Source of the DNA: Candidatus Gastranaerophilales bacterium
Lineage (GTDB): Bacteria > Cyanobacteriota > Vampirovibrionia > Gastranaerophilales > Gastranaerophilaceae
Direction: 5' to 3'
NCBI GenBank assembly: GCA_947589115.1
Contig: CANPZP010000006.1
Span: 1-46,408, forward strand
DNA length: 46,408 nt
Of this stretch, positions 22,932-39,920 are shown in pieces. Under the pieces are notes generated by a model. That model was given only the letters and a program-made list of their open reading frames with translations, did not search any database and was not told the origin of the DNA. The first letter of the stretch is position 1. Each line of letters starts with the position of its first letter. A program made the translations under genes and the position numbers.

Positions 22932-23858
22932 TTGAAAAAAATACTTATAACAGGCGGTGCCGGATTTATCGGGTCACATCTTTGTCTAAAACTTCTCAAT
23001 GAAGGGAATTATATTATTTGCCTCGATAACTTCTATACGGGAGCTAAAAGGAATATAGAGCATTTAATGTCATATCCTGATTTTAAATTGGTTGAGCAAA
23101 GTGTAATCGAAAAATTTGATTGTGAAGTTGATGAAATATATAATCTGGCATGCCCGGCATCTCCAATCCATTATCAATCATCACCGATAGAAACAACAAA
23201 AGCTTCTGTTCTTGGAATATTAAATATGCTTGAATTGGCAAATAAGTATAATGCTAAAATCCTTCAAGCAAGCACAAGTGAAGTATACGGCGACCCAGTG
23301 GTACATCCTCAAATTGAATCATACTGGGGCAATGTAAATCCTATCGGCTTAAGATGCTGTTATGACGAGGGTAAAAGATGTGCAGAATCTTTAATGACGG
23401 ATTATTACAGGCAATATAACACAAATATCAGAATTGCAAGAATATTTAATACTTATGGCCCGAATATGGCGGTAAATGACGGAAGAGTTATTTCAAATTT
23501 TATTGTTCAGGCGCTTAAAAACGAACCTGTAACAATATATGGAAACGGCAATCAAACAAGGTCTTTCTGCTATGTTGATGATTTAATTAACGGATTAACT
23601 TCTTTAATGGAGAGTAATTTAAATTCGCCTGTTAATCTGGGTAATCCTGATGAGTATACAATGCTTGAACTTGCAAAATTAATTATAGATATTACAAATT
23701 CAAAATCACAAATAATATTTAAACCTCTTCCCGAGGATGACCCTGTTAAAAGGAAGCCGGATATTTCCCTTGCAAAAAAGACTCTTGGTTTTTCTCCTAC
23801 AGTTAGTATTAAAAACGGACTTATCAAAACTATAAATTACTTTAAGAATATTATTTAA
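22932..23858 (+). CDS. UDP-glucuronate decarboxylase-like SDR (UDP-xylose synthase)
   Basis: 308 aa, extended short-chain dehydrogenase. The NAD site is [11 protein letters not shown] (about 7-17); the catalytic Tyr and Lys are in CYDEGKR, with the Ser/Thr of ASTSEVYG. The '[14 protein letters not shown]' and '[18 protein letters not shown]' stretches are typical of UDP-glucuronate decarboxylases, which make UDP-xylose for cell-surface glycans. Translation starts at TTG: GAGGT is seven bases upstream and no ATG or GTG fits. It begins 10 nt after the ABC exporter stop. Other UDP-sugar epimerase or dehydratase activities remain possible. Confidence 0.88.
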
Positions 23859-25011: not shown

Positions 25012-25449
25012 ATGCAAAATAATAATTATAAAGTTCTGCCTTTAGAAAAAATAATTTCATTTCTTTCTTATACATCTATGGGTATTGTAGGTTTAATATG
25101 GATTATAATTGCTCACTTTATGGGCAGAAAATTAAGATTTTTTCTTATGTATAATATTGCACAATCCATGATAATTTCCGTTATATTAGCTATATTTAAA
25201 CTTTCGATTGATTTATTACTCTTCTTAATTTCAAAAATCCCGTTTTTGGATTTTATTGCTGCATTAATTAACTTAATTATTTCTATTAAAATAGTTAGAT
25301 TCCAAACTTTGGGATTTTCGTTTAATATTATTGAAATTTTGGTATTCTTAATGCTTATATACATTTGTATAGGCGTATTTTTGGGCAGAATTTTTTACAT
25401 TCCTTATTTGACGGACTTAATGAAAAAAATTGTTAAACAAAGTGATTAA
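25012..25449 (+). CDS. Tic20-like integral membrane protein
   Basis: 145 aa with about four transmembrane segments. The order 'KIISFLSYTSMGIVGL', 'GRKLRFFLMYNIAQSMIISV' and a C-terminal 'CIGVFLGRIFYIPYLTDLMKKIV' matches the layout of Tic20-like proteins of Cyanobacteria (a 'RFN..QA' helix and a final 'GR.P.IP..S.A' segment). Tic20 is a component of the chloroplast inner-membrane protein translocon; the bacterial role is unknown. The assignment rests on pattern only. The stop overlaps that of the convergent SIS gene by 4 bp. Confidence 0.55.
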   Translation: MQNNNYKVLPLEKIISFLSYTSMGIVGLIWIIIAHFMGRKLRFFLMYNIAQSMIISVILAIFKLSIDLLLFLISKIPFLDFIAALINLIISIKIVRFQTLGFSFNIIEILVFLMLIYICIGVFLGRIFYIPYLTDLMKKIVKQSD

Positions 25450-26534
25450 ACTACAACTTTTGTTAATCCGTCAGGATTATCCGTTGAATGCTTTAACTGT
25501 ATTGAAACGTACAATGCCAAAAGTTGTAATGCAATTAATGATGCAAATATAAAACTTATTTCATCCGTTTCTTTTATAAAAATTCTATGATTATCCTTAT
25601 AGTCATTAATGTTTGTTATTGATAACGACTCATATTTAAACTTATCATTTAATTTTGAGTGTACGATATCCGCTAAATTGCGATTATCTTGATTTACTAT
25701 TGAAATTACGCATGATTTTTTATTTAAAACCGCCATATGACCGTGAAGAAATTCACCTAAAGGATATGCCGACGAATTTATATATGATATCTCCTGTATT
25801 TTAAGCGCTCCTTCTTGCGCTAAACGGTAATATATTGAATTTGCAAGTAATATAATATTTTCAGAAACAGACATAATTTTTGCAAAATTTTTAATATCAT
25901 CTCCTATATTTTCCAAAAATTCTTTTAGTGATTTTGAAACATTTAATAAATCAGTTTTATACTTTGCCGTATTAATTCCCTTTAAATCAAAAAATTTCAA
26001 AGCAAGTAAAAACAAGCAAAATGTCTGCGCACTCATTGCTTTTGTTGAGGCAATTGCTTTCTCGACTCCCGCATATGTCAATATTTTATATTTTGAATTA
26101 TTGTATATAGAAGAATTTTTTGTATTTGTTACACATAATGTATTCTCTGTTTTTGAGGAAATTAAACTCAATGCTTTTTTGGTATCAGATGTTTCTCCCG
26201 ACTGAGATATAAAAACATACAAAATATTTTTATCGGTATCAAAACTGTTAAAATTCGCAATTTCACTCGCATAATATGAATGAGCAAAAAAAGGTATTGT
26301 TTTATTTATAAATTCGGAAATTATTGATGCGCTGTGGTATGATGACCCGCTTGCAATAAAAACAATTCCATTTATATTATCAGGTATTTCCATATTTATA
26401 CAGAAATTAATTCCGATATATTTTCTGATTAATTTATCAATTATATACGGCTGTTCAAGAATCTCTTTTTCCATACAGGTTTTATTATTTATAACCGAGA
26501 TTTTATTTATTATTCTCTTTAATACTTCAAACAT
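25446..26534 (-). CDS. GlmS-like SIS-domain sugar isomerase/deaminase without glutaminase domain
   Basis: 362 aa containing only the isomerase part of a GlmS-type protein. It starts with CMEKEILEQP (residues 20-29), as at the linker of GlmS. Two SIS domains follow: the first with IASGSSYHSA and ISQSGETSDT (about 100-110), the second with EGALKIQEISYINSSAYPLGEFLHGH (about 235-260), which contains the Glu and His expected for ring opening and isomerisation. The N-terminal glutamine amidotransferase, with its Cys1, is missing, so ammonia must come from elsewhere or the reaction runs as a deaminase (AgaS/FrlB-like). AAGAGGAAAT precedes the ATG. It follows tolC by 47 nt in a likely envelope operon. 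Confidence 0.82.
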   Translation of the reverse strand: MFEVLKRIINKISVINNKTCMEKEILEQPYIIDKLIRKYIGINFCINMEIPDNINGIVFIASGSSYHSASIISEFINKTIPFFAHSYYASEIANFNSFDTDKNILYVFISQSGETSDTKKALSLISSKTENTLCVTNTKNSSIYNNSKYKILTYAGVEKAIASTKAMSAQTFCLFLLALKFFDLKGINTAKYKTDLLNVSKSLKEFLENIGDDIKNFAKIMSVSENIILLANSIYYRLAQEGALKIQEISYINSSAYPLGEFLHGHMAVLNKKSCVISIVNQDNRNLADIVHSKLNDKFKYESLSITNINDYKDNHRIFIKETDEISFIFASLIALQLLALYVSIQLKHSTDNPDGLTKVVV

Positions 26535-26581
26535 AATTTCCTCTTAATAATTTAATTCCTCAATTAATAAAAAATTATTCA

Positions 26582-28060
26582 TTAATAATATCTTAATTGA
26601 TAATCTTTCAGAACATTTTCAGGACTAATAATACCGGTATCAAAAAGTAAATTAGTCTGAGCTTTATTATATTCTATCATATGTTTTATTAAGTTAATAT
26701 TAGCCTGAACTTTTAAGTTTTGAGATGCTATAACATCAATAAATGTTGCTTCTCCCTGCTTCATATTTGTTAAAGATAAATCCAAACTCACATTTGCAGC
26801 TTCAACTTCAACCTTGGATGCTTCAATTTTCTTTAAAGCATTTATTGAATCATAATATGAATTTAAAATATCCTCTTTTACTTGGCGCTTAAGATTAATA
26901 AGCTCAAGTTTTTTCTGTCTGACTACTGCTGATTCAGCCTGTATTTCGGAAATTGTACCCATTAATAAATTTTTTCCCAAATATGCCCTGACATCTAATG
27001 TAATACTGTTATGAGGAGACATTCCGGCACGTTTTGTTCCCACATAACCGTTTTGGTATGAAAGAGTAACGGCCGGTATAATATCGGTATAATTAGCACT
27101 TCTTTGGGCTTTATATGCTTTTACTTCGGCTGTCTTTGCTCTGATATCTTCTCTGGACTCCAATGCCTGCTCATACAACTCTTCAATACTAACATCAGGA
27201 TTAATTAATTCTCTTTGGTCGACTCGAATTTCAAACGGATATATTGCATCAAGAATATCAACTCCCATAACATTTGCAAGCGCAGCCTGCCTTAACCTCA
27301 ATGAATTTAAAGTTTCCGTATAATCCTGCTGCGCACCTGCCAATTCAGCCTGAGCTCTTTTTACGTCATATAATGTGCCTATCCCTGCATTAAACCTTGC
27401 CTGTGTATATTTTAACTGTTCCAATCTGTCATATAAGTTTACTTTTTGAACTTCAATCTCCATCTTCTTTTCCAGCGTTTCATAATATGCAATAACCGTA
27501 TCTCTTATTATTTGTTCTTTTGTATATTCAAGATTTGCTTTTGCTGCTCTTAACATATTTCTTGTCTGAGCAAGGAGGAAGAAATATTTACCTTGATTTA
27601 TGGTTGACCATTCAAGTACAAACAGGCTTTGAACAGGTACTTCGTGTGTGGTCGTGGCGACAATACCTCCGACTAAATATTCACCCTCTAAATTTTTTAA
27701 GTCATAATTATAATAAATATCGGGCAGAAGCTGAAACTGAGCATTCTTATTAACCCAAAAAGCTTCTGATTTATATGCATCTTGTATTTTGATATCAAAG
27801 TTATTCATTAATGCTATTTTTATACAATCCGCTAAATCCAAATAAATAAACCTTGAATCTAACTCTTGAGAAATTTCACGGTCAATTACTGCTTGTTTTT
27901 CAATATCCGATATGGATGCACCGCCTTTAATAACTTGCGAGAATGTTTTATAACTGTCATTTTCACAGCATCTTGAATACTCTTCAATATATTGCGCCAC
28001 ATCAGCATATACAGACATTTGAATTAATATAAAAATTAAAATTATAAATAAAATTCTCAT
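26582..28060 (-). CDS. TolC-family outer-membrane efflux protein
   Basis: 492 aa with a signal peptide (MRILFIILIFILIQMSVYA). Two outer-membrane-efflux (OEP) repeats follow, with long heptad-rich helices such as VEVQKVNLYDRLEQLKYTQARFNAGIGTLYDVKRAQAEL and a second GEATFIDVIASQNLKVQANINL; 'Q(A/S)(R/L).(N/K).G..T..DV..A' is the family hallmark. It forms a trimeric channel for type I secretion or efflux. The partner exporter could be the MsbA-like gene or one outside this window; no membrane fusion protein is seen here. It lies 71 nt after the GT9 gene. Confidence 0.9.
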   Translation of the reverse strand: MRILFIILIFILIQMSVYADVAQYIEEYSRCCENDSYKTFSQVIKGGASISDIEKQAVIDREISQELDSRFIYLDLADCIKIALMNNFDIKIQDAYKSEAFWVNKNAQFQLLPDIYYNYDLKNLEGEYLVGGIVATTTHEVPVQSLFVLEWSTINQGKYFFLLAQTRNMLRAAKANLEYTKEQIIRDTVIAYYETLEKKMEIEVQKVNLYDRLEQLKYTQARFNAGIGTLYDVKRAQAELAGAQQDYTETLNSLRLRQAALANVMGVDILDAIYPFEIRVDQRELINPDVSIEELYEQALESREDIRAKTAEVKAYKAQRSANYTDIIPAVTLSYQNGYVGTKRAGMSPHNSITLDVRAYLGKNLLMGTISEIQAESAVVRQKKLELINLKRQVKEDILNSYYDSINALKKIEASKVEVEAANVSLDLSLTNMKQGEATFIDVIASQNLKVQANINLIKHMIEYNKAQTNLLFDTGIISPENVLKDYQLRYY

Positions 28061-28131
28061 ACAAAAATTATGAAATATTTGAATAAAAAAATATTTAACT
28101 AATATACCAGTACAGAAGAGTAATTTAAGAA

Positions 28132-29121
28132 TTAAACAGCATTAACTACAGAGTTAATATCAATATTTAAACAATCCAATTTATCACACGTGCTGAGCCG
28201 TTTATCCCACAAGCAAGGTCTGCACTCACAATTGTTATAAACGGGAATATACTTATCATCTTCGGGAATTAATTTTTTATAATCAGTAGGCCCGAAAATT
28301 GCAACAACTTTAGTATCAAGACCGACACCTATATGCATAGGTGCAGAATCCGAACATATCAAAACCTCAGTGCTTTTTATAAGCCTTGCTAAATCATATA
28401 TATTCTTTGTTTTTCCAAACATATCATTAAAGTTTGGGAAATTATAATCTTTAAGTTCATTTCTGATTACGGAAATACACTCAGTATCATCCGGACCGCC
28501 CGCTAAATAAACTATTTTGCCTTTAATAAGAAGTCTTTTAATAATTTCAGCCCAACTTTGAGGAGGCAGAGTTTTTGTTATATTTTTCATAACACTTATT
28601 CTGCTTACTCCGGGATGAACAGTAACACTATTCGGAATTATATTTATATCCTCAACTTCAATTTTCGCTTTTTCATAATCAGCATTTGATACGGGTTTAA
28701 CCAAATCATAATACATACAAGATGCATACTGATTTTTATTTAAGGGAACAGTGTGTGTTAACAAATATTTAGCAAATTTAGAAGAGTTATAACCAACTCT
28801 TGTTTTAATTCCGCTAAAAAACAGTAAAAAAGCAATTAACGGATTTGACCCGGCTGATATTACCAAATCATACCGGGAAAAAAGCAGCCTTAAATATAAT
28901 TTAATTATTTCAAAATATTTATTTTTTGTCTTTATATTAATAAAGAAAAACTTGTCAATTAATGAGGTTAAATTAAGAAAAGCCTTGCTTCTTTCCTCAA
29001 GACACAAAGTTAAAGAGGCGCTCGGGTATGTTTTTTTTAAGGACTGAATAACGGGCATGAACAATATTTCATCCCCGATTCCGCCAAAATTAATTAATAA
29101 AATATTCCTGTATTCTGTCAT
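28132..29121 (-). CDS. GT9 family heptosyltransferase-like protein
   Basis: 329 aa, glycosyltransferase family 9 fold (ADP-heptose:LPS heptosyltransferase type). Visible: the N-terminal LLINFGGIGDEILFMPVIQSL, a TVHPGVSR nucleotide-sugar region, VYLAGGPDD, CSDSAPMHIGVGLDTKVVAIFGPT (the donor site with Asp-Ser) and a C-terminal Cys cluster (CECRPCLW...CDKLDCLNI) as in WaaF-like enzymes. It probably adds heptose or a similar sugar to lipopolysaccharide core on the cytoplasmic side. Its ATG is 2 nt after the stop of the upstream hypothetical gene. Confidence 0.88.
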   Translation of the reverse strand: MTEYRNILLINFGGIGDEILFMPVIQSLKKTYPSASLTLCLEERSKAFLNLTSLIDKFFFINIKTKNKYFEIIKLYLRLLFSRYDLVISAGSNPLIAFLLFFSGIKTRVGYNSSKFAKYLLTHTVPLNKNQYASCMYYDLVKPVSNADYEKAKIEVEDINIIPNSVTVHPGVSRISVMKNITKTLPPQSWAEIIKRLLIKGKIVYLAGGPDDTECISVIRNELKDYNFPNFNDMFGKTKNIYDLARLIKSTEVLICSDSAPMHIGVGLDTKVVAIFGPTDYKKLIPEDDKYIPVYNNCECRPCLWDKRLSTCDKLDCLNIDINSVVNAV

Positions 29122-29123
29122 AT

Positions 29124-29474
29124 TTAAAACGGTTTTGTCTGGTTTAATTTATTTCTTAATTCTCTGAATCTTTGAATATCTTCCTGAGCCTTACCGTATT
29201 CTCTAAATACAACCTGACTGGAAGGATGCACCATCATTATACAATCAATATGCACTTCAAGAAAATTATACTTTCTTGGCGGAGTATTTGATGAATTTCT
29301 TGCTAATATTTCAGCATTTGTAACAGCTAAAAATCTTTTTTCTCTATCATTCAATAAATCGGTTAATTCTCTGTTTGTTTTAGTATACTTTGAAACATGA
29401 ACCGTACCTTTTATTTCATGGTCTTTTGTTAAAATTATTACCTCTATAGGAACTGTATCAACGTTTTTAGACAT
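29124..29474 (-). CDS. Conserved hypothetical protein (116 aa)
   Basis: Not recognised with confidence. A compact beta-rich N-terminal part (VIILTKDHEIKGTVHVSKYT, then RFLAVTNAEIL and KYNFLEVHIDCIMMVHPSS) looks like a small barrel that may bind RNA or another protein; the last 25 residues are a charged helix. There is no signal peptide or membrane segment. AAAGGCG lies seven bases before the ATG. Its near-overlap with the GT9 gene means they are expressed together. Confidence 0.75.
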   Translation of the reverse strand: MSKNVDTVPIEVIILTKDHEIKGTVHVSKYTKTNRELTDLLNDREKRFLAVTNAEILARNSSNTPPRKYNFLEVHIDCIMMVHPSSQVVFREYGKAQEDIQRFRELRNKLNQTKPF

Positions 29475-29557
29475 TTTTCGCCTTTATTCACTATCATCAA
29501 TTTGATTATATTATAAATTTCAAATTAATGCCATATGTTAAAACAAGTTACATAAAA

Positions 29558-30274
29558 CTACCACGGGTAATCATCTTTAATTTCCCAATTATCAATCTGA
29601 ATGAGCGCCCCGCAAAACATTCCCAAATTGTCCTTATTGCATGGATATTTTTGCGCTCCAGAGCCATTAATTAATTCTTCTCTTCCTCTCTTAATATGAA
29701 GTAATTCATCCCCAAGCGTGTCAGTTATTTCATTATCATATACATTCATCATAATTATACCGCCTAATTTTGGATATATCATAAAAACAAATAAATCTTT
29801 ACCCATCTTATTCGGCTTCTTAAAGCCATTTATATCAACAGCCGAATAAAAGCTTTTCCATTCATCGCCTCTTACGAATATCTGAGCACCTGACGTTAAT
29901 GTAACTATTGTTGCAGTATCCCGAAACGGAGAATAAAGGCTTATATCCTCCCCTGATAAACCGGCATAATTAACTCCGAGATTATTTTTTGCCTCCTGTA
30001 CCCCTATTTTTGAGGCTACTTTTAAATTGGGTTCCAAATATTTTGCAAAAAATTCCGGTGCACTCAATTTATAATCCCAATTTTCATAACTTCCGTATTG
30101 AACTTGTGAAAGCATAGCAGCTTGTTTTACTTCAGAGTACACCTTCTTTAATCTTGTAACAGTTTCTTTTTTATTATAAAAATTTACTATTACAGGAACG
30201 GTAATTGCTGCAATTACACCTATAATCAATATAGTTATAAGCACTTCTGATAACGTAAAAGTTTTTATTTTCAT
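29558..30274 (-). CDS. Type IV pilin-like / type II secretion pseudopilin
   Basis: 238 aa. The N-terminus MKIKT-FTLSEVLITILIIGVIAAITVP is a prepilin leader of five residues followed by the hydrophobic pilin helix with Glu at +5. The residue before the cleavage site is Thr, where Gly (or Ala) is normal. The body (KKETVTRLKKVYSEVKQAA... and a C-terminal part with two or more Cys) is the type seen in large families of Gastranaerophilales pseudopilins. It should be cleaved by a PilD peptidase and assemble into a pilus or secretion pseudopilus. Start at 30274 has GGAG upstream; the ATG at 30289 overlaps that site and is rejected. Confidence 0.88.
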   Translation of the reverse strand: MKIKTFTLSEVLITILIIGVIAAITVPVIVNFYNKKETVTRLKKVYSEVKQAAMLSQVQYGSYENWDYKLSAPEFFAKYLEPNLKVASKIGVQEAKNNLGVNYAGLSGEDISLYSPFRDTATIVTLTSGAQIFVRGDEWKSFYSAVDINGFKKPNKMGKDLFVFMIYPKLGGIIMMNVYDNEITDTLGDELLHIKRGREELINGSGAQKYPCNKDNLGMFCGALIQIDNWEIKDDYPW

Positions 30275-36337: not shown

Positions 36338-36377
36338 AAAATGTTATATGGAAATTAAATATTTTCATATAACATTT
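36338..36377. terminator. Bidirectional terminator overlapping a gene end
   Basis: AAAATGTTATATG and CATATAACATTTT pair around a 15-nt AT-rich loop, with T-runs on both strands. The right arm is the last coding part (MLYENI) of the nucleotidyltransferase-kinase gene, so coding sequence doubles as terminator. Confidence 0.78.
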
Positions 36378-37926
36378 TTTTACCGAGAAAATATAATAAA
36401 TGACAATAAGGATAATGATGTAAAGCTGCAATGTTTAAATATATCAATGCACAAATTTGTTTTACTTTTTTTACATCAAAATTATTTTCACTAAGCCATT
36501 TATAATAATATTCTTCGCACTGAATCAAAATAGGTTTTCTATCAAAACTATAATTAACAATGTTATTATTTATATCAACTTTAAATTTATTCTGAGCTAT
36601 TAACTCGTGACATATTATCAGGCCATGTAATAATTTACCCAAATCATAATATATGTCACCATAATCAAGATGTCCTCCGAAATTTTGACGCCAATCTAAC
36701 AGAGTAAATTTATCATTCTTTTTATCATATAGAATATTTTCAAAATGAAAATCACCATGAAAACGACCGATTAAACCGTCATTAATATTGTTCCAATCAA
36801 CTTTTTCTATAATTTCAGACAGTTTTGGTATACTTACACCGTTTATTACCGTTTCAGTGTCACTCATTTTAAATGTATCATAATATAAATTAATTCTTTT
36901 AAGAGTTTTTTTATAATAAAATTCCTCACAAATTTTATTAAATTCAGGATACTTTTTATATTCACCCAAATTAAAGAATTTTAAAGAATATGTAAGTAAT
37001 TTTTTAAATATTTCAACATCATCAATTTTAGATAAAACAACACCATCTTGCTTATTATAGCAATACATATTTTCCGTAAAACTTATTATGTCAGGAACAT
37101 AGCCTTTAAGGAAGTTAACTCTTGCTACCCTGTCTTTAATAAAATTTTTATCATCACAGTATTTAATAACTTTATTATTGACAAACCATATTGTTTCATT
37201 AGGTTTTGGCAATATATTAACATCTTCTTCAGAGGGATAAGACTTTTCAGTTAACCCAAGCTCTATAAGATTACCCGTATCATACCAAGTAGCTTTTTGT
37301 GCATACAAATTACCTTCATCTGCAAAAATTGAAAGCGGGTAACTTTCACCGATAATTACGGCATCTTTACCTCCATTGTGCATTTCTTGCCAAAATCTTT
37401 TGTAATCATTAATACAAGCAAGTCCGATATAAGGTTTTGCGCTGTTTGAAGCCATTTGCTTTTCATAAAATTTTACAGCCTTATTATTTTTTACTTCAAT
37501 AGTTCTGTATTGATTAATATCATCACGCTGACCATAAAATACAATATTTTTGTCCGGATAGGGTATGGGTTCTTTTATTAAAGTATCGCAAGAACAAAAA
37601 ACAAATGGCTCATTTAAATATTTTTCGGAAGTTAATATTGATAATCCTAATCCTGAGCCTTCACCTTCGTATTTTTCAACAGTAGAATAATAAAATACTC
37701 TGTCAGGATGCGCTAAAGATAAATATTGCTTTACTAAATCCCCTTTATATCCAAGAACAATTACAAACTCGCAGTTATTAGGGAACATCTCTATTATTCT
37801 TGAAATAACCGGTTTATTTCCTATACCGACTAATGATTTGTTTAAATATTTTGTTAAATCTTTTAATCTTCCGCCTATTCCGGCTACAGGTATTAAAACC
37901 TTATATTTATTTTCTGTTATAATCAT
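36355..37926 (-). CDS. Bifunctional sugar nucleotidyltransferase - APH-type kinase
   Basis: 523 aa in two domains. Residues 1 to about 235 are an NTP transferase: PVAGIGGRLKDLTKYLNKSL is the nucleotide-binding loop variant, with a catalytic Asp in FCSCDT and a late Asp in WYDTGNL. Residues from about 245 on are an aminoglycoside/choline-phosphotransferase-like kinase: FHGDFHFENILYD is the catalytic loop (Asp and Asn) and LLDWRQNFGG the metal site, followed by DIYYDLGKLLHG. The protein could phosphorylate a sugar or polyol and then attach a nucleotide. The ATG is inside the end of the cupin gene (20-bp overlap). It ends the cassette. Confidence 0.85.
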   Translation of the reverse strand: MIITENKYKVLIPVAGIGGRLKDLTKYLNKSLVGIGNKPVISRIIEMFPNNCEFVIVLGYKGDLVKQYLSLAHPDRVFYYSTVEKYEGEGSGLGLSILTSEKYLNEPFVFCSCDTLIKEPIPYPDKNIVFYGQRDDINQYRTIEVKNNKAVKFYEKQMASNSAKPYIGLACINDYKRFWQEMHNGGKDAVIIGESYPLSIFADEGNLYAQKATWYDTGNLIELGLTEKSYPSEEDVNILPKPNETIWFVNNKVIKYCDDKNFIKDRVARVNFLKGYVPDIISFTENMYCYNKQDGVVLSKIDDVEIFKKLLTYSLKFFNLGEYKKYPEFNKICEEFYYKKTLKRINLYYDTFKMSDTETVINGVSIPKLSEIIEKVDWNNINDGLIGRFHGDFHFENILYDKKNDKFTLLDWRQNFGGHLDYGDIYYDLGKLLHGLIICHELIAQNKFKVDINNNIVNYSFDRKPILIQCEEYYYKWLSENNFDVKKVKQICALIYLNIAALHHYPYCHLLYFLGKKMLYENI

Positions 37927-38251
37927 CTGATATTCTCACTGTATCATCTGTATCAGGAGTTGAAGCTTCTAAATACACACAATCAGTTACTCCTTCCATT
38001 CTGTGAATTATATGCGGTTCTATTGTTATTACATCTGAAACTTTATATATTTTTGAGGTCAGATTATTTTTATCTGTTCCTTGAATTATTCTTAATTCTC
38101 CTGATATTACATATATTGTTTCACATTTATTATTATGATATTGAAGCGAACATCTGTTATCTTTTTTCATAGTAAGACGTTTTAACATATATTTATCATT
38201 TAATTCAAGTATTTCTTCACATCCCCAAGGCTTATCAATTAACGTGTACAT
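37907..38251 (-). CDS. Cupin-fold sugar isomerase-like protein
   Basis: 114 aa single cupin domain. It matches the mannose-6-phosphate isomerase type II / AlgA C-terminal domain pattern: KPWGCEEIL at the start, LQYHNNKCETIYVISGELRI with metal ligands His, Gln/Glu, and EPHIIHRMEGVTDCVYLEASTP. It may isomerise or epimerise the sugar phosphate made by the neighbouring aldolase. GAGGAACTAAT precedes the ATG. It overlaps the aldolase gene by 13 bp and the nucleotidyltransferase-kinase gene by 20 bp. Confidence 0.83.
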   Translation of the reverse strand: MYTLIDKPWGCEEILELNDKYMLKRLTMKKDNRCSLQYHNNKCETIYVISGELRIIQGTDKNNLTSKIYKVSDVITIEPHIIHRMEGVTDCVYLEASTPDTDDTVRISDDYNRK

Positions 38252-39424
38252 ATTAGTTCCTCTTCTAATGTATTATTAACTCTAAACAGTTTTAAATATG
38301 TTAAAATACAATCTTTTACTTTATTTTTTAAATAATCATCAAGATTAACATTTTTAATCTGTTTTTGAATTTTATCTTTAAGTATCAAAAACTCATCTGT
38401 TGAAAAAACATAATGACCCGCAATTATTGCCTTATCCCTATTTGTTAATGTTGAATTGGGCATAAGCCACTTTTCCCACTTATTTGAGTTATATGAAATA
38501 TTTAAAAATTCATTTATAAATTGGGGAAGATTATATTTTTCTAAGAAATTAATTAATGACTTAGTTTCACAAACTCCAAATTCAGGAGCAACATTGGCTG
38601 CACTAATCTTATATTTTGGAAATAATCTTAATGCTTCATGTTTTAAATAATCAGTATTATGTACTTTCATGAAGAAATTATGATTTAAACACTCTTGAGC
38701 CAATTCACTTACATATGAAAATACTTTTTCATTATTATTCTGATTTAGTATTCCAATATTTTGCATTTCAATAACTTTTGTTCCGACTTGAGTAACAACA
38801 AATAAAGGAAGTTTCCATTTATTGCTTTTACAAGCATTCAAAACTTGATTTAAAAGTTTAACATATTCTGTTTTGTCATTGAAATATGTCATCTGTTCTT
38901 CCGTTCCTATCTCATATTCAATGACTTTTTTAGTTTTAAAAGCATAATCTTCACAAGCCGAATATAATTCCAATAACCTGTCTAAAATTTCATCACCGGA
39001 AACTTGTCCGTATATGTTAATACTCGGATCAAGATGTAAAATATCAAAACCGGAATCAATATCAATATAAAAAGAATCAAGAGCTGATTTCATAGCATCT
39101 TTTAAATTATATTTTTTCATGACTTCAACGGTATTTTGCCACGGCCCGCCATGGTCACGAGCTATAATAACATTATTCTTTTTTGATTTTGATTGAACAT
39201 ATTTAACAAATTCTTCGGTTGACCAATTATTAACATAGCCTCTTTTAATTTGCTTACAATCAACCTGCCTTCTACTGGCTATTAACATTACGGGGAAATC
39301 AGTTTCATCTGCTATTTCTATAGCTGCATTAACAGTATTTGTACTCATTGGCCCTATTCCAAGAGCCGTATTCCCCCCCCCCCGTTGCAGATATGTACTT
39401 TTTTAATCTGATGATTTTTTCCAT
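38239..39424 (-). CDS. GatZ/KbaZ-like aldolase, frame interrupted at a poly-G tract
   Basis: Related to the class II tagatose-bisphosphate aldolase subunit family (PF08013). Correspondences to GatZ include ARDHGGPW (GGDHLGPN), DILHLDPSI (KIHLDAS), EYEIGTE (YVIGTE) and KVHNTDYLK (EAHSTDYQT). Its natural start is ATG 39424, one base after the kdsC-like stop, with AAAGGA upstream. From there the frame reads MEKIIRLKKYISATGGG and, because of 11 G (39383-39373), runs out of frame to TAA at 39331-39329 after 31 codons. With 10 G it would continue ...GGGNTALGIGPMSTNT into the long open frame (about 394 aa total), matching the GatZ N-terminus. An internal ATG at 39348 could give a shortened product. 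Probably phase-variable and OFF here. Confidence 0.82.
39373..39383 (-). repeat. Homopolymeric tract of 11 G (phase-variation site candidate)
   Basis: A run of 11 C on the plus strand (G on the coding strand) is very unusual in this AT-rich DNA; no other G/C run of similar length is in the window. It lies 14 codons into the aldolase gene. Lengths of 10 or 13 keep the frame; 11 and 12 break it. An assembly or sequencing error of one base cannot be excluded. Confidence 0.85.
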
Positions 39425-39425
39425 A

Positions 39426-39920
39426 TTATAAATCCTTTAAAGGGTTATATGCCACAAAAAATTTACTCATAATATGCAAACAAGCTTCCGCAACGGCACG
39501 ATTCCCGCCTACTCTTTTTGTAACATATTTTGCGGTTCTTTTTGCAAATTCATCAGAATCGGAAGTTGCAATAGAATATCCCACTTGTTTCATAACGATA
39601 GAATCAAAAATACCATCACCCATATATATAACATCTTGAGGGTTATACTTTGTTCTAATCCATTCAATACGTTTATCGGTACTAACTAAATCAATTTGAA
39701 ATTTCATATCTTTGATTCGTCTTTTTGTAATATTAAACCCTCTCTTATCCCCTGAAACAAACCTTATTTCAATAAATGGGGCTAATAATTTTAAAGCATC
39801 ATTATCATCAGGCCCAAATTTCTTCAGCACCTTTCCTTCTTCCGAATAATAAAAACCGCCATCGGTTAAAACGCCGTCAACATCTAATATAAATACTTTA
39901 GGATTAAATAAATTTGCCAT
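39426..39920 (-). CDS. KdsC-like HAD phosphatase
   Basis: 164 aa HAD-superfamily phosphatase of the KdsC (KDO-8-phosphate phosphatase) type, with no cap domain. Motif I is FILDVDGVLTDGGFYY (Asp nucleophile and acid), motif II FVSGDKRG, motif III Lys in the RRIKD region, motif IV MGDGIFDSIVMKQVG. KdsC removes the phosphate from a 2-keto sugar acid phosphate; here the partner aldolase suggests another keto-sugar phosphate. There is no good Shine-Dalgarno. It is the first gene of the overlapping cassette and ends one base before the aldolase ATG. Confidence 0.88.
   Translation of the reverse strand: MANLFNPKVFILDVDGVLTDGGFYYSEEGKVLKKFGPDDNDALKLLAPFIEIRFVSGDKRGFNITKRRIKDMKFQIDLVSTDKRIEWIRTKYNPQDVIYMGDGIFDSIVMKQVGYSIATSDSDEFAKRTAKYVTKRVGGNRAVAEACLHIMSKFFVAYNPLKDL

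Follow-up and report, generated by a model that had tools for sequence, protein, structure and literature searches.

What do four overlapping genes of a Candidatus Gastranaerophilales bacterium make together? The genes lie on the minus strand of a 46,408-nucleotide stretch of DNA (contig CANPZP010000006.1 of assembly GCA_947589115.1; hereafter the window) and encode a KdsC-like phosphatase of the HAD family, a protein related to GatZ, a cupin, and a fusion of a nucleotidyltransferase with a kinase. It is very likely that they jointly produce a nucleotide-activated sugar, and we assign a probability of roughly 0.6 to the more specific reading that central metabolism supplies a ketose phosphate, which becomes this sugar by a route of epimerase, isomerase, phosphatase, kinase and nucleotidyltransferase in which the GatZ-like step is optional. 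The phosphatase gene (39426..39920; 164 amino acids), proposed to remove the sugar phosphate, is separated by a 1-bp gap between its stop (39426) and the ATG at 39424 from the GatZ-like gene (PF08013; 38239..39424 from its true ATG), which is frameshifted as assembled and whose product is a proposed ketose-phosphate epimerase. The latter gene overlaps by 13 bp that of a single-domain cupin of the mannose-6-phosphate isomerase (PMI) type II kind (37907..38251), a proposed ketose/aldose isomerase, and the cupin gene overlaps by 20 bp the fusion gene (36355-37926). The N-terminal half of the fusion is a nucleotidyltransferase domain (37207..37926), recognized by profile and structure model, and the C-terminal half an APH-fold kinase domain (36355..37206; PF01636). 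This packing, including domains, gap and overlaps, had been described in an earlier note on this DNA with coordinates that proved exact to the base.

The case for a common function is carried by the recurrence of the same genes elsewhere. A contig scan with an alignment of GatZ-like proteins revealed relatives in Gastranaerophilales, Prochlorococcus, Arcobacter, one proteobacterium and two archaea, and searches of individual clades added further ones; the cellular loci span Gastranaerophilales, Prochlorococcaceae, Campylobacterota, Proteobacteria and Nanobdellota. The cupin and the nucleotidyltransferase-APH fusion are encoded near the GatZ-like gene in all 17 cellular loci (in genome G022 across a contig break), joined in 13 by the KdsC-like HAD protein, for which a BcbF-type HAD protein is substituted in locus L037. 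Chance clustering was rejected, since these genes are found together in different phyla. Carriers of the GatZ-like gene are few: three of the 386 genomes in the phylum sample, and 2/249, 4/240 and 2/194 in three other samples. The fusion is present in four of the same 386 genomes, among them all three that have the GatZ-like gene. Because the cassette is rare and scattered among the genomes sampled, its distribution fits horizontal transfer.

The cassette is also present in viral sequences. A scan of viral contigs yielded 267 stretches coding for GatZ-like relatives, and from the best 80 of these matches, together with Marine virus AG-345-E15, we obtained 59 non-redundant loci, 48 of which include enough upstream sequence for comparison, with the qualification that IMG/VR contigs may include host sequence. 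In these 48 loci the fusion is always found, the cupin in 45 and an HAD protein likewise in 45 (15 KdsC, 31 of another type). Cupin, nucleotidyltransferase and APH domains form a single polypeptide in 11 of the 48, fusions of HAD protein and cupin are seen in others, and a family B DNA polymerase gene lies close to the cassette in 11. In the phylogenetic tree, viral and cellular GatZ-like proteins are intermingled within one clade (support 100/99); outside it fall E. coli GatZ and KbaZ and also a catabolic clade represented by Klebsiella, Listeria and Enterococcus plasmids. The earlier note had proposed that the four functions form a conserved set for a nucleotide-activated sugar and that the same domains should be sought side by side in other genomes; the 17 cellular and 48 viral loci bear this out strongly, and its remark that no known pathway has this exact set agrees with the literature searched, in which we found no published one.

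Two further proteins recur in the viral cassettes. A shikimate-dehydrogenase-like protein (viral cluster 5; for example L147 5330-5980 and L122 5214-5990) is encoded in 20 of the 48 and in the proteobacterial locus L014 (11390-12163), and may perhaps oxidise or reduce the sugar. The other, of ~360 amino acids (viral cluster 8; for example L172 5745-6833 and L149 7309-8466), is encoded directly downstream of the GatZ-like or HAD gene in 23 viral loci; its copy in L172 matched no Pfam or PHROG family, and it is a candidate glycosyltransferase.

The GatZ-like protein scores 34.0 bits against PF08013 (gathering cut-off 26.7) and 31.3 bits against TIGR02810, far from the 568.8 bits set for that equivalog, for which reason membership in the GatZ equivalog was rejected. 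A plain phmmer search of the protein against PDB gave no match, and a profile was required. The nearest folds to its structure model are 2fiq (GatZ/KbaZ; Z score 33) and 3txv (Z 30.7), followed by tagatose 4-epimerase and UxaE (Z ~25) and then by class II aldolases (Z ~22). E. coli GatZ and KbaZ are 4-epimerases that convert fructose-6-phosphate to tagatose-6-phosphate, by a predicted retro-aldol/aldol mechanism with zinc on His88, Glu171 and His257 and with Asp87 as the base (PMC11907403). In addition to the fold, the cassette protein shares with them the catalytic Asp and the His-Glu-His metal set: D75 and the metal positions H76, E160 (Asp in three sequences) and H240 are kept in 102 of 102 aligned sequences. 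Since GatZ/KbaZ and tagatose 4-epimerase/UxaE are the structures closest to its model, and since the E. coli enzymes are fructose-6-phosphate 4-epimerases, an epimerase is, by analogy, likelier than an aldolase. On the same grounds, the idea of the earlier note that a sugar is assembled from C3/C4 precursors is not supported.

The other three proteins would carry out the steps after the epimerase. The KdsC-like protein has the HAD motifs DxDG and GDGxxD, with D13, D15, D102 and D106 conserved in 32-33 of the 33 homologues, and matches KdsC chains in PDB with E-values of 1e-15 to 1e-18 and Aquifex AQ2171 with 1e-23. Its score against TIGR01670 is 82.1 bits, below the cut-off of 106.95 (KdsC equivalog membership was rejected on this count), and it scores 68 bits against a KDN-9-phosphate phosphatase model. 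The cupin scores 37.8 bits against PF01050 (cut-off 23.6), and its candidate metal set Q37, H39, E44 and H83, kept in 50-51 of 51 sequences, occupies the Q-x-H...E...H positions that we take to be the zinc ligands of PMI; in L037 the cupin slot is filled by a PMI-type domain, with an E-value of 1.2e-36 to the PMI-containing GMP_PMI model. The nucleotidyltransferase half of the fusion remains under the Pfam cut-off (16.2 against 21.2 bits) and is clear by profile and structure: in a fusion model with a predicted local distance difference test score (pLDDT) of 90, the first 250 residues match sugar nucleotidyltransferases at Z 23-25, and G16, G18, R20 and K30 are kept in 74 of 74 aligned rows. 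With the whole fusion as query, the top rows of the fold search are nucleotidyltransferases only. The kinase domain scores 28.9 bits against PF01636 (APH; cut-off 23.2), and all 78 sequences compared retain H390, D392, N397 and D411.

In the route that we infer, with its reactions, their order, substrate, nucleotide and acceptor, the GatZ-like enzyme would epimerise a ketose phosphate at C4 by metal-dependent retro-aldol/aldol chemistry, the PMI-like cupin would convert the ketose phosphate to an aldose phosphate, and the KdsC-like protein would take off the terminal phosphate. The APH domain of the fusion would then phosphorylate the free sugar at C1, and its nucleotidyltransferase domain would add the nucleotide. 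If the GatZ-like enzyme is absent, the remaining three would lead to the other epimer. That the product is NDP-talose, by way of fructose-6-phosphate, tagatose-6-phosphate and talose-6-phosphate, is speculation; the literature searched offered nothing usable on tagatose or talose in phages or polysaccharides.

Parts of this route have counterparts in known systems. In the GDP-manno-heptose pathway, an isomerase, a kinase, an HAD phosphatase and a nucleotidyltransferase (GmhA, HddA, GmhB, HddC) process a sugar phosphate one after another; it differs from the cassette in having a GHMP kinase, which acts ahead of the phosphatase, and the cassette is not this pathway, because genes resembling the latter adjoin it in L037. 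In Pseudomonas, AmgK phosphorylates C1 and MurU adds the nucleotide. These two enzymes belong with MupP, which contributes an HAD phosphatase step to the salvage of N-acetylmuramic acid from the cell wall (PMC5371407). MupP-AmgK-MurU thus shares with the cassette an HAD phosphatase, an APH-fold C1 kinase and a nucleotidyltransferase in the same chemical order, but its genes are separate, it has no epimerase or isomerase, and its sequences are distant; the fusion reaches 18.3 bits against the MurU equivalog NF045761 (cut-off 250). For CDP-6-D-glucitol of Campylobacter jejuni HS:5, two enzymes suffice, one for direct C6 cytidylylation and a reductase (PMC10918830); there, as proposed here, a ketohexose phosphate of central metabolism is activated, in that case for the capsule, but no phosphatase, kinase or epimerase takes part.

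The firmest point of reference for the activation steps is phage RB69, the DNA of which carries arabinosyl-hydroxymethylcytosine; the authors of that work flagged ORF055c and ORF53_52c and left the chemistry unsettled (PMC6024577). In the RB69 genome (NC_004928; L206), profiles identified ORF053c as a nucleotidyltransferase (8.5e-11) and ORF052c as a kinase (1.3e-14; 28094-29780 together), and ORF051c (27708-28094), annotated as phosphoheptose isomerase, as an HAD protein of the viral cassette type (1.4e-19 against that HAD profile). The RB69 module (ORF055c, 053c, 052c and 051c) accordingly combines a homologous nucleotidyltransferase, kinase and HAD protein with a sugar-phosphate isomerase and, as in 11 viral cassette loci, lies beside a DNA polymerase gene. 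It differs in that an SIS-type arabinose-5-phosphate isomerase stands for the cupin, no GatZ-like gene is present, and nucleotidyltransferase and kinase are two overlapping genes. The neighbours of a related fusion in Enterococcus phage Planchet are an HAD gene, glycosyltransferase genes and a member of the thymidylate synthase family that is annotated as pyrimidine hydroxymethylase.

The GatZ-like gene of the window has a further peculiarity in its 5' part. The frame that opens with the ATG at 39424 meets 11 consecutive G of the coding strand (39373..39383 in plus-strand numbering; minus strand) and reaches a stop soon after; when the length of the run was varied, G7, G10 and G13 were in frame and G11 was out, making this a candidate phase-variation tract that is OFF as assembled. 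The open reading frame starting at 39348 does not include the conserved N-terminal strand (LGIGP). The run is the only G/C run of at least 6 in the window, where about 6e-4 runs of at least 11 would be expected, and the arrangement is that of slipped-strand variation, a 5' coding homopolymer whose length sets the GatZ-like frame. Counted from pattern hits, some 70 further G/C tracts of at least 9 exist in the genome against an expectation of less than one; among those inspected, the majority sit in prepilin-like genes, at their 5' ends. Because the tract sits in the GatZ-like gene and the genome is rich in G/C tracts at 5' ends, phase variation of this gene is plausible from the sequence. The other explanation is that the tract reflects an assembly error or a decaying gene: the genome is a draft in 98 contigs, and the tract is missing from the GatZ-like copies of three congeners. 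We regard this as rather unlikely, considering that the rest of the frame is intact, with 387 codons open and a ratio of non-synonymous to synonymous substitution (dN/dS) of 0.23 against G025, and that the genome has so many other tracts of this kind.

Dozens of prepilin-like genes of the same genome (G000; leader ...FTLAEVLITL...) seem to carry C9 on the coding strand just past the start codon (for example L097, L111, L114, L115, L119), so that pseudopilins may form a large phase-variable family in this organism. In L112 (G000 contig 12, ~35164), a G10 run puts the two parts of an apparent glycosyltransferase in different frames, which makes it the second candidate for glycosylation under phase variation. 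Most sampled congeners are likewise rich in such G/C tracts.

If the tract switches the GatZ-like gene, what would be switched? Two congeners, G009 and G015, have the phosphatase, cupin and fusion without GatZ. In the tree of the fusion, G009 stands beside G025 (96/96) and G015 beside G004 (98/98); therefore, GatZ was lost at least two times. The remaining genes show dN/dS of 0.07-0.16 in the G009/G025 and G015/G004 pairs and, because they stay constrained after repeated loss of GatZ, the three-gene set remains useful, presumably making the non-epimerised sugar. The GatZ step thus appears optional, altering the sugar when it operates, and the poly-G tract would determine which sugar is made and not whether one is made. 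The earlier note had spoken of a switchable first step; the tract is present in the assembled sequence and the genome is rich in tracts, but given its absence from three congeners and the relatives that keep the other genes without GatZ, the step is better seen as optional than as an indispensable point of entry.

Several observations weigh against the proposed route. Residues C20, E44 and K279 are named as hallmarks of the GatZ/KbaZ family (PMC11907403); by sequence alignment onto GatZ, these substrate-contact positions are G9, I33 and N262 in the cassette protein, which has about 20% identity to the E. coli enzymes and, in addition, near-invariant basic residues R74 and K238 where GatZ has G86 and E255. 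The substrate may therefore be other than fructose-6-phosphate, and the reaction may be that of an aldolase. In the latter case, a true aldolase would condense C3/C4 units into a keto-sugar or polyol that is then dephosphorylated, isomerised and activated; the class II aldolase fold, the intact metal site and catalytic Asp and the replaced GatZ-specific residues are consistent with this. We nevertheless consider it unlikely: the epimerase folds are closer than the aldolases, GatZ itself is without aldolase action according to one study in the account given of it by PMC11907403, and congeners whose other genes stay constrained without GatZ are hard to square with a builder of the carbon skeleton. 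The kept Asp/His/Glu/His positions make it likely that the reaction type is common with GatZ/KbaZ, while the exchange of C20/E44/K279 and the near-invariance of R74/K238 make a different substrate likely.

The activation step meets objections as well. The best PDB sequence match of the nucleotidyltransferase domain is LicC, a phosphocholine cytidylyltransferase (profile, E-value 7.5e-11), and the fusion might, in the manner of LicA/LicC, phosphorylate and activate a polyol or an alcohol that is not a sugar (similar to choline, glycerol or ribitol), with its precursor made by GatZ, cupin and HAD protein. By fold, LicC (Z 23.7) is not set apart from RmlA-type enzymes (Z 24.8), GalU (within Z 23-25) or MurU (Z 23.5), which score equally. 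Open-chain sugars are activated likewise, as CDP-6-D-fructose and CDP-6-D-glucitol show (PMC10918830), but a reductase is not a constant member of the cassette, the recurring epimerase-isomerase-phosphatase set suits a sugar, and the RB69 homologues go with arabinose; the LicA/LicC-like explanation thus appears quite improbable. Phosphorylation at C1 can be proposed by analogy only, because the profile of the kinase domain matched no solved relative among PDB sequences. The role of the cupin could be structural or regulatory, and within ~7 kb of the cassette in the window there is no glycosyltransferase gene.

Further constraint on the substrate comes from the sister clade of the cassette GatZ-like proteins. 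Its genes in Klebsiella, Listeria and Enterococcus (L204 4956-6209, L207 4935-6203, L208 5932-7209) are annotated 'class II D-tagatose-bisphosphate aldolase, non-catalytic subunit' and are distinct from GatZ/KbaZ. They lie beside a fructose-type phosphotransferase system (PTS) and an HAD gene, to which the Klebsiella and Enterococcus loci add a transaldolase or fructose-6-phosphate aldolase, and the encoded protein is probably a catabolic epimerase. The clade shares with the cassette proteins the residues in which they depart from GatZ, and because it adjoins the fructose-type PTS and transaldolase/fructose-6-phosphate aldolase, a ketohexose phosphate substrate is indicated; we favour ketohexose-6-phosphate over pentulose-5-phosphate. 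The same neighbourhoods, two of the three with a fructose-6-phosphate aldolase or transaldolase, are what could suggest that the cassette itself serves the catabolism of tagatose, galactitol or a related sugar. We hold this to be most improbable, as the cassette loci have no transport, PTS or sugar aldolase genes and have glycosyltransferases nearby, and the biosynthetic proteins form a clade of their own. E. coli gatZ and kbaZ, too, are found with the GatY/KbaY aldolase and PTS genes, whereas the cassette loci are without both and lie in glycan or viral settings. A catabolic operon, the contrary case that the earlier note had named for tagatose or galactitol with kinase and transport genes nearby, is seen for the sister clade only and not for the cassette.

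To judge from neighbouring genes, the acceptor would be a surface glycan in cells and a surface glycan or a DNA base in viruses. Several congener cassettes, and that of L014, have a GT2 glycosyltransferase as neighbour, and viruses carry other glycan genes. Beside congener cassettes there are also large membrane proteins without Pfam match (L006 11427-12956, L008 5092-6597, L036 1125-2669), possibly GT-C type glycosyltransferases. In the window, other glycan genes are found ~7-13 kb from the cassette, namely those of a UDP-xylose-synthase-like epimerase, an SIS-domain isomerase and a heptosyltransferase-like protein (22932-23858 and 25446-29121; assigned from translations only). On the Sinorhizobium plasmid pSS05631a (L203 8028-11504), flanked by insertion sequences, the GatZ-like and cupin genes are followed by a DegT aminotransferase and an HAD gene, with the nucleotidyltransferase-kinase replaced, perhaps an amino-sugar variant.

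More tentatively, at somewhat less than even odds, the monophyletic GatZ-like proteins would be retro-aldol epimerases of a previously undescribed, mobile nucleotide-sugar pathway of bacteria, archaea and many viruses that supplies a rare sugar for surface glycans or DNA bases, with slipped-strand mispairing toggling the epimer in this gut-dwelling relative of cyanobacteria. If the proposed route is correct, the label 'tagatose-bisphosphate aldolase, non-catalytic subunit' would seem to mislead for the whole clade, and a function could be proposed for the unexplained nucleotidyltransferase, kinase and HAD genes of the RB69 DNA-arabinosylation module. A new activated-sugar pathway would then be recognisable by sequence in bacteria, archaea and viruses, and surface variation would take an uncommon form if a switch altered the stereochemistry of a sugar and not its presence.

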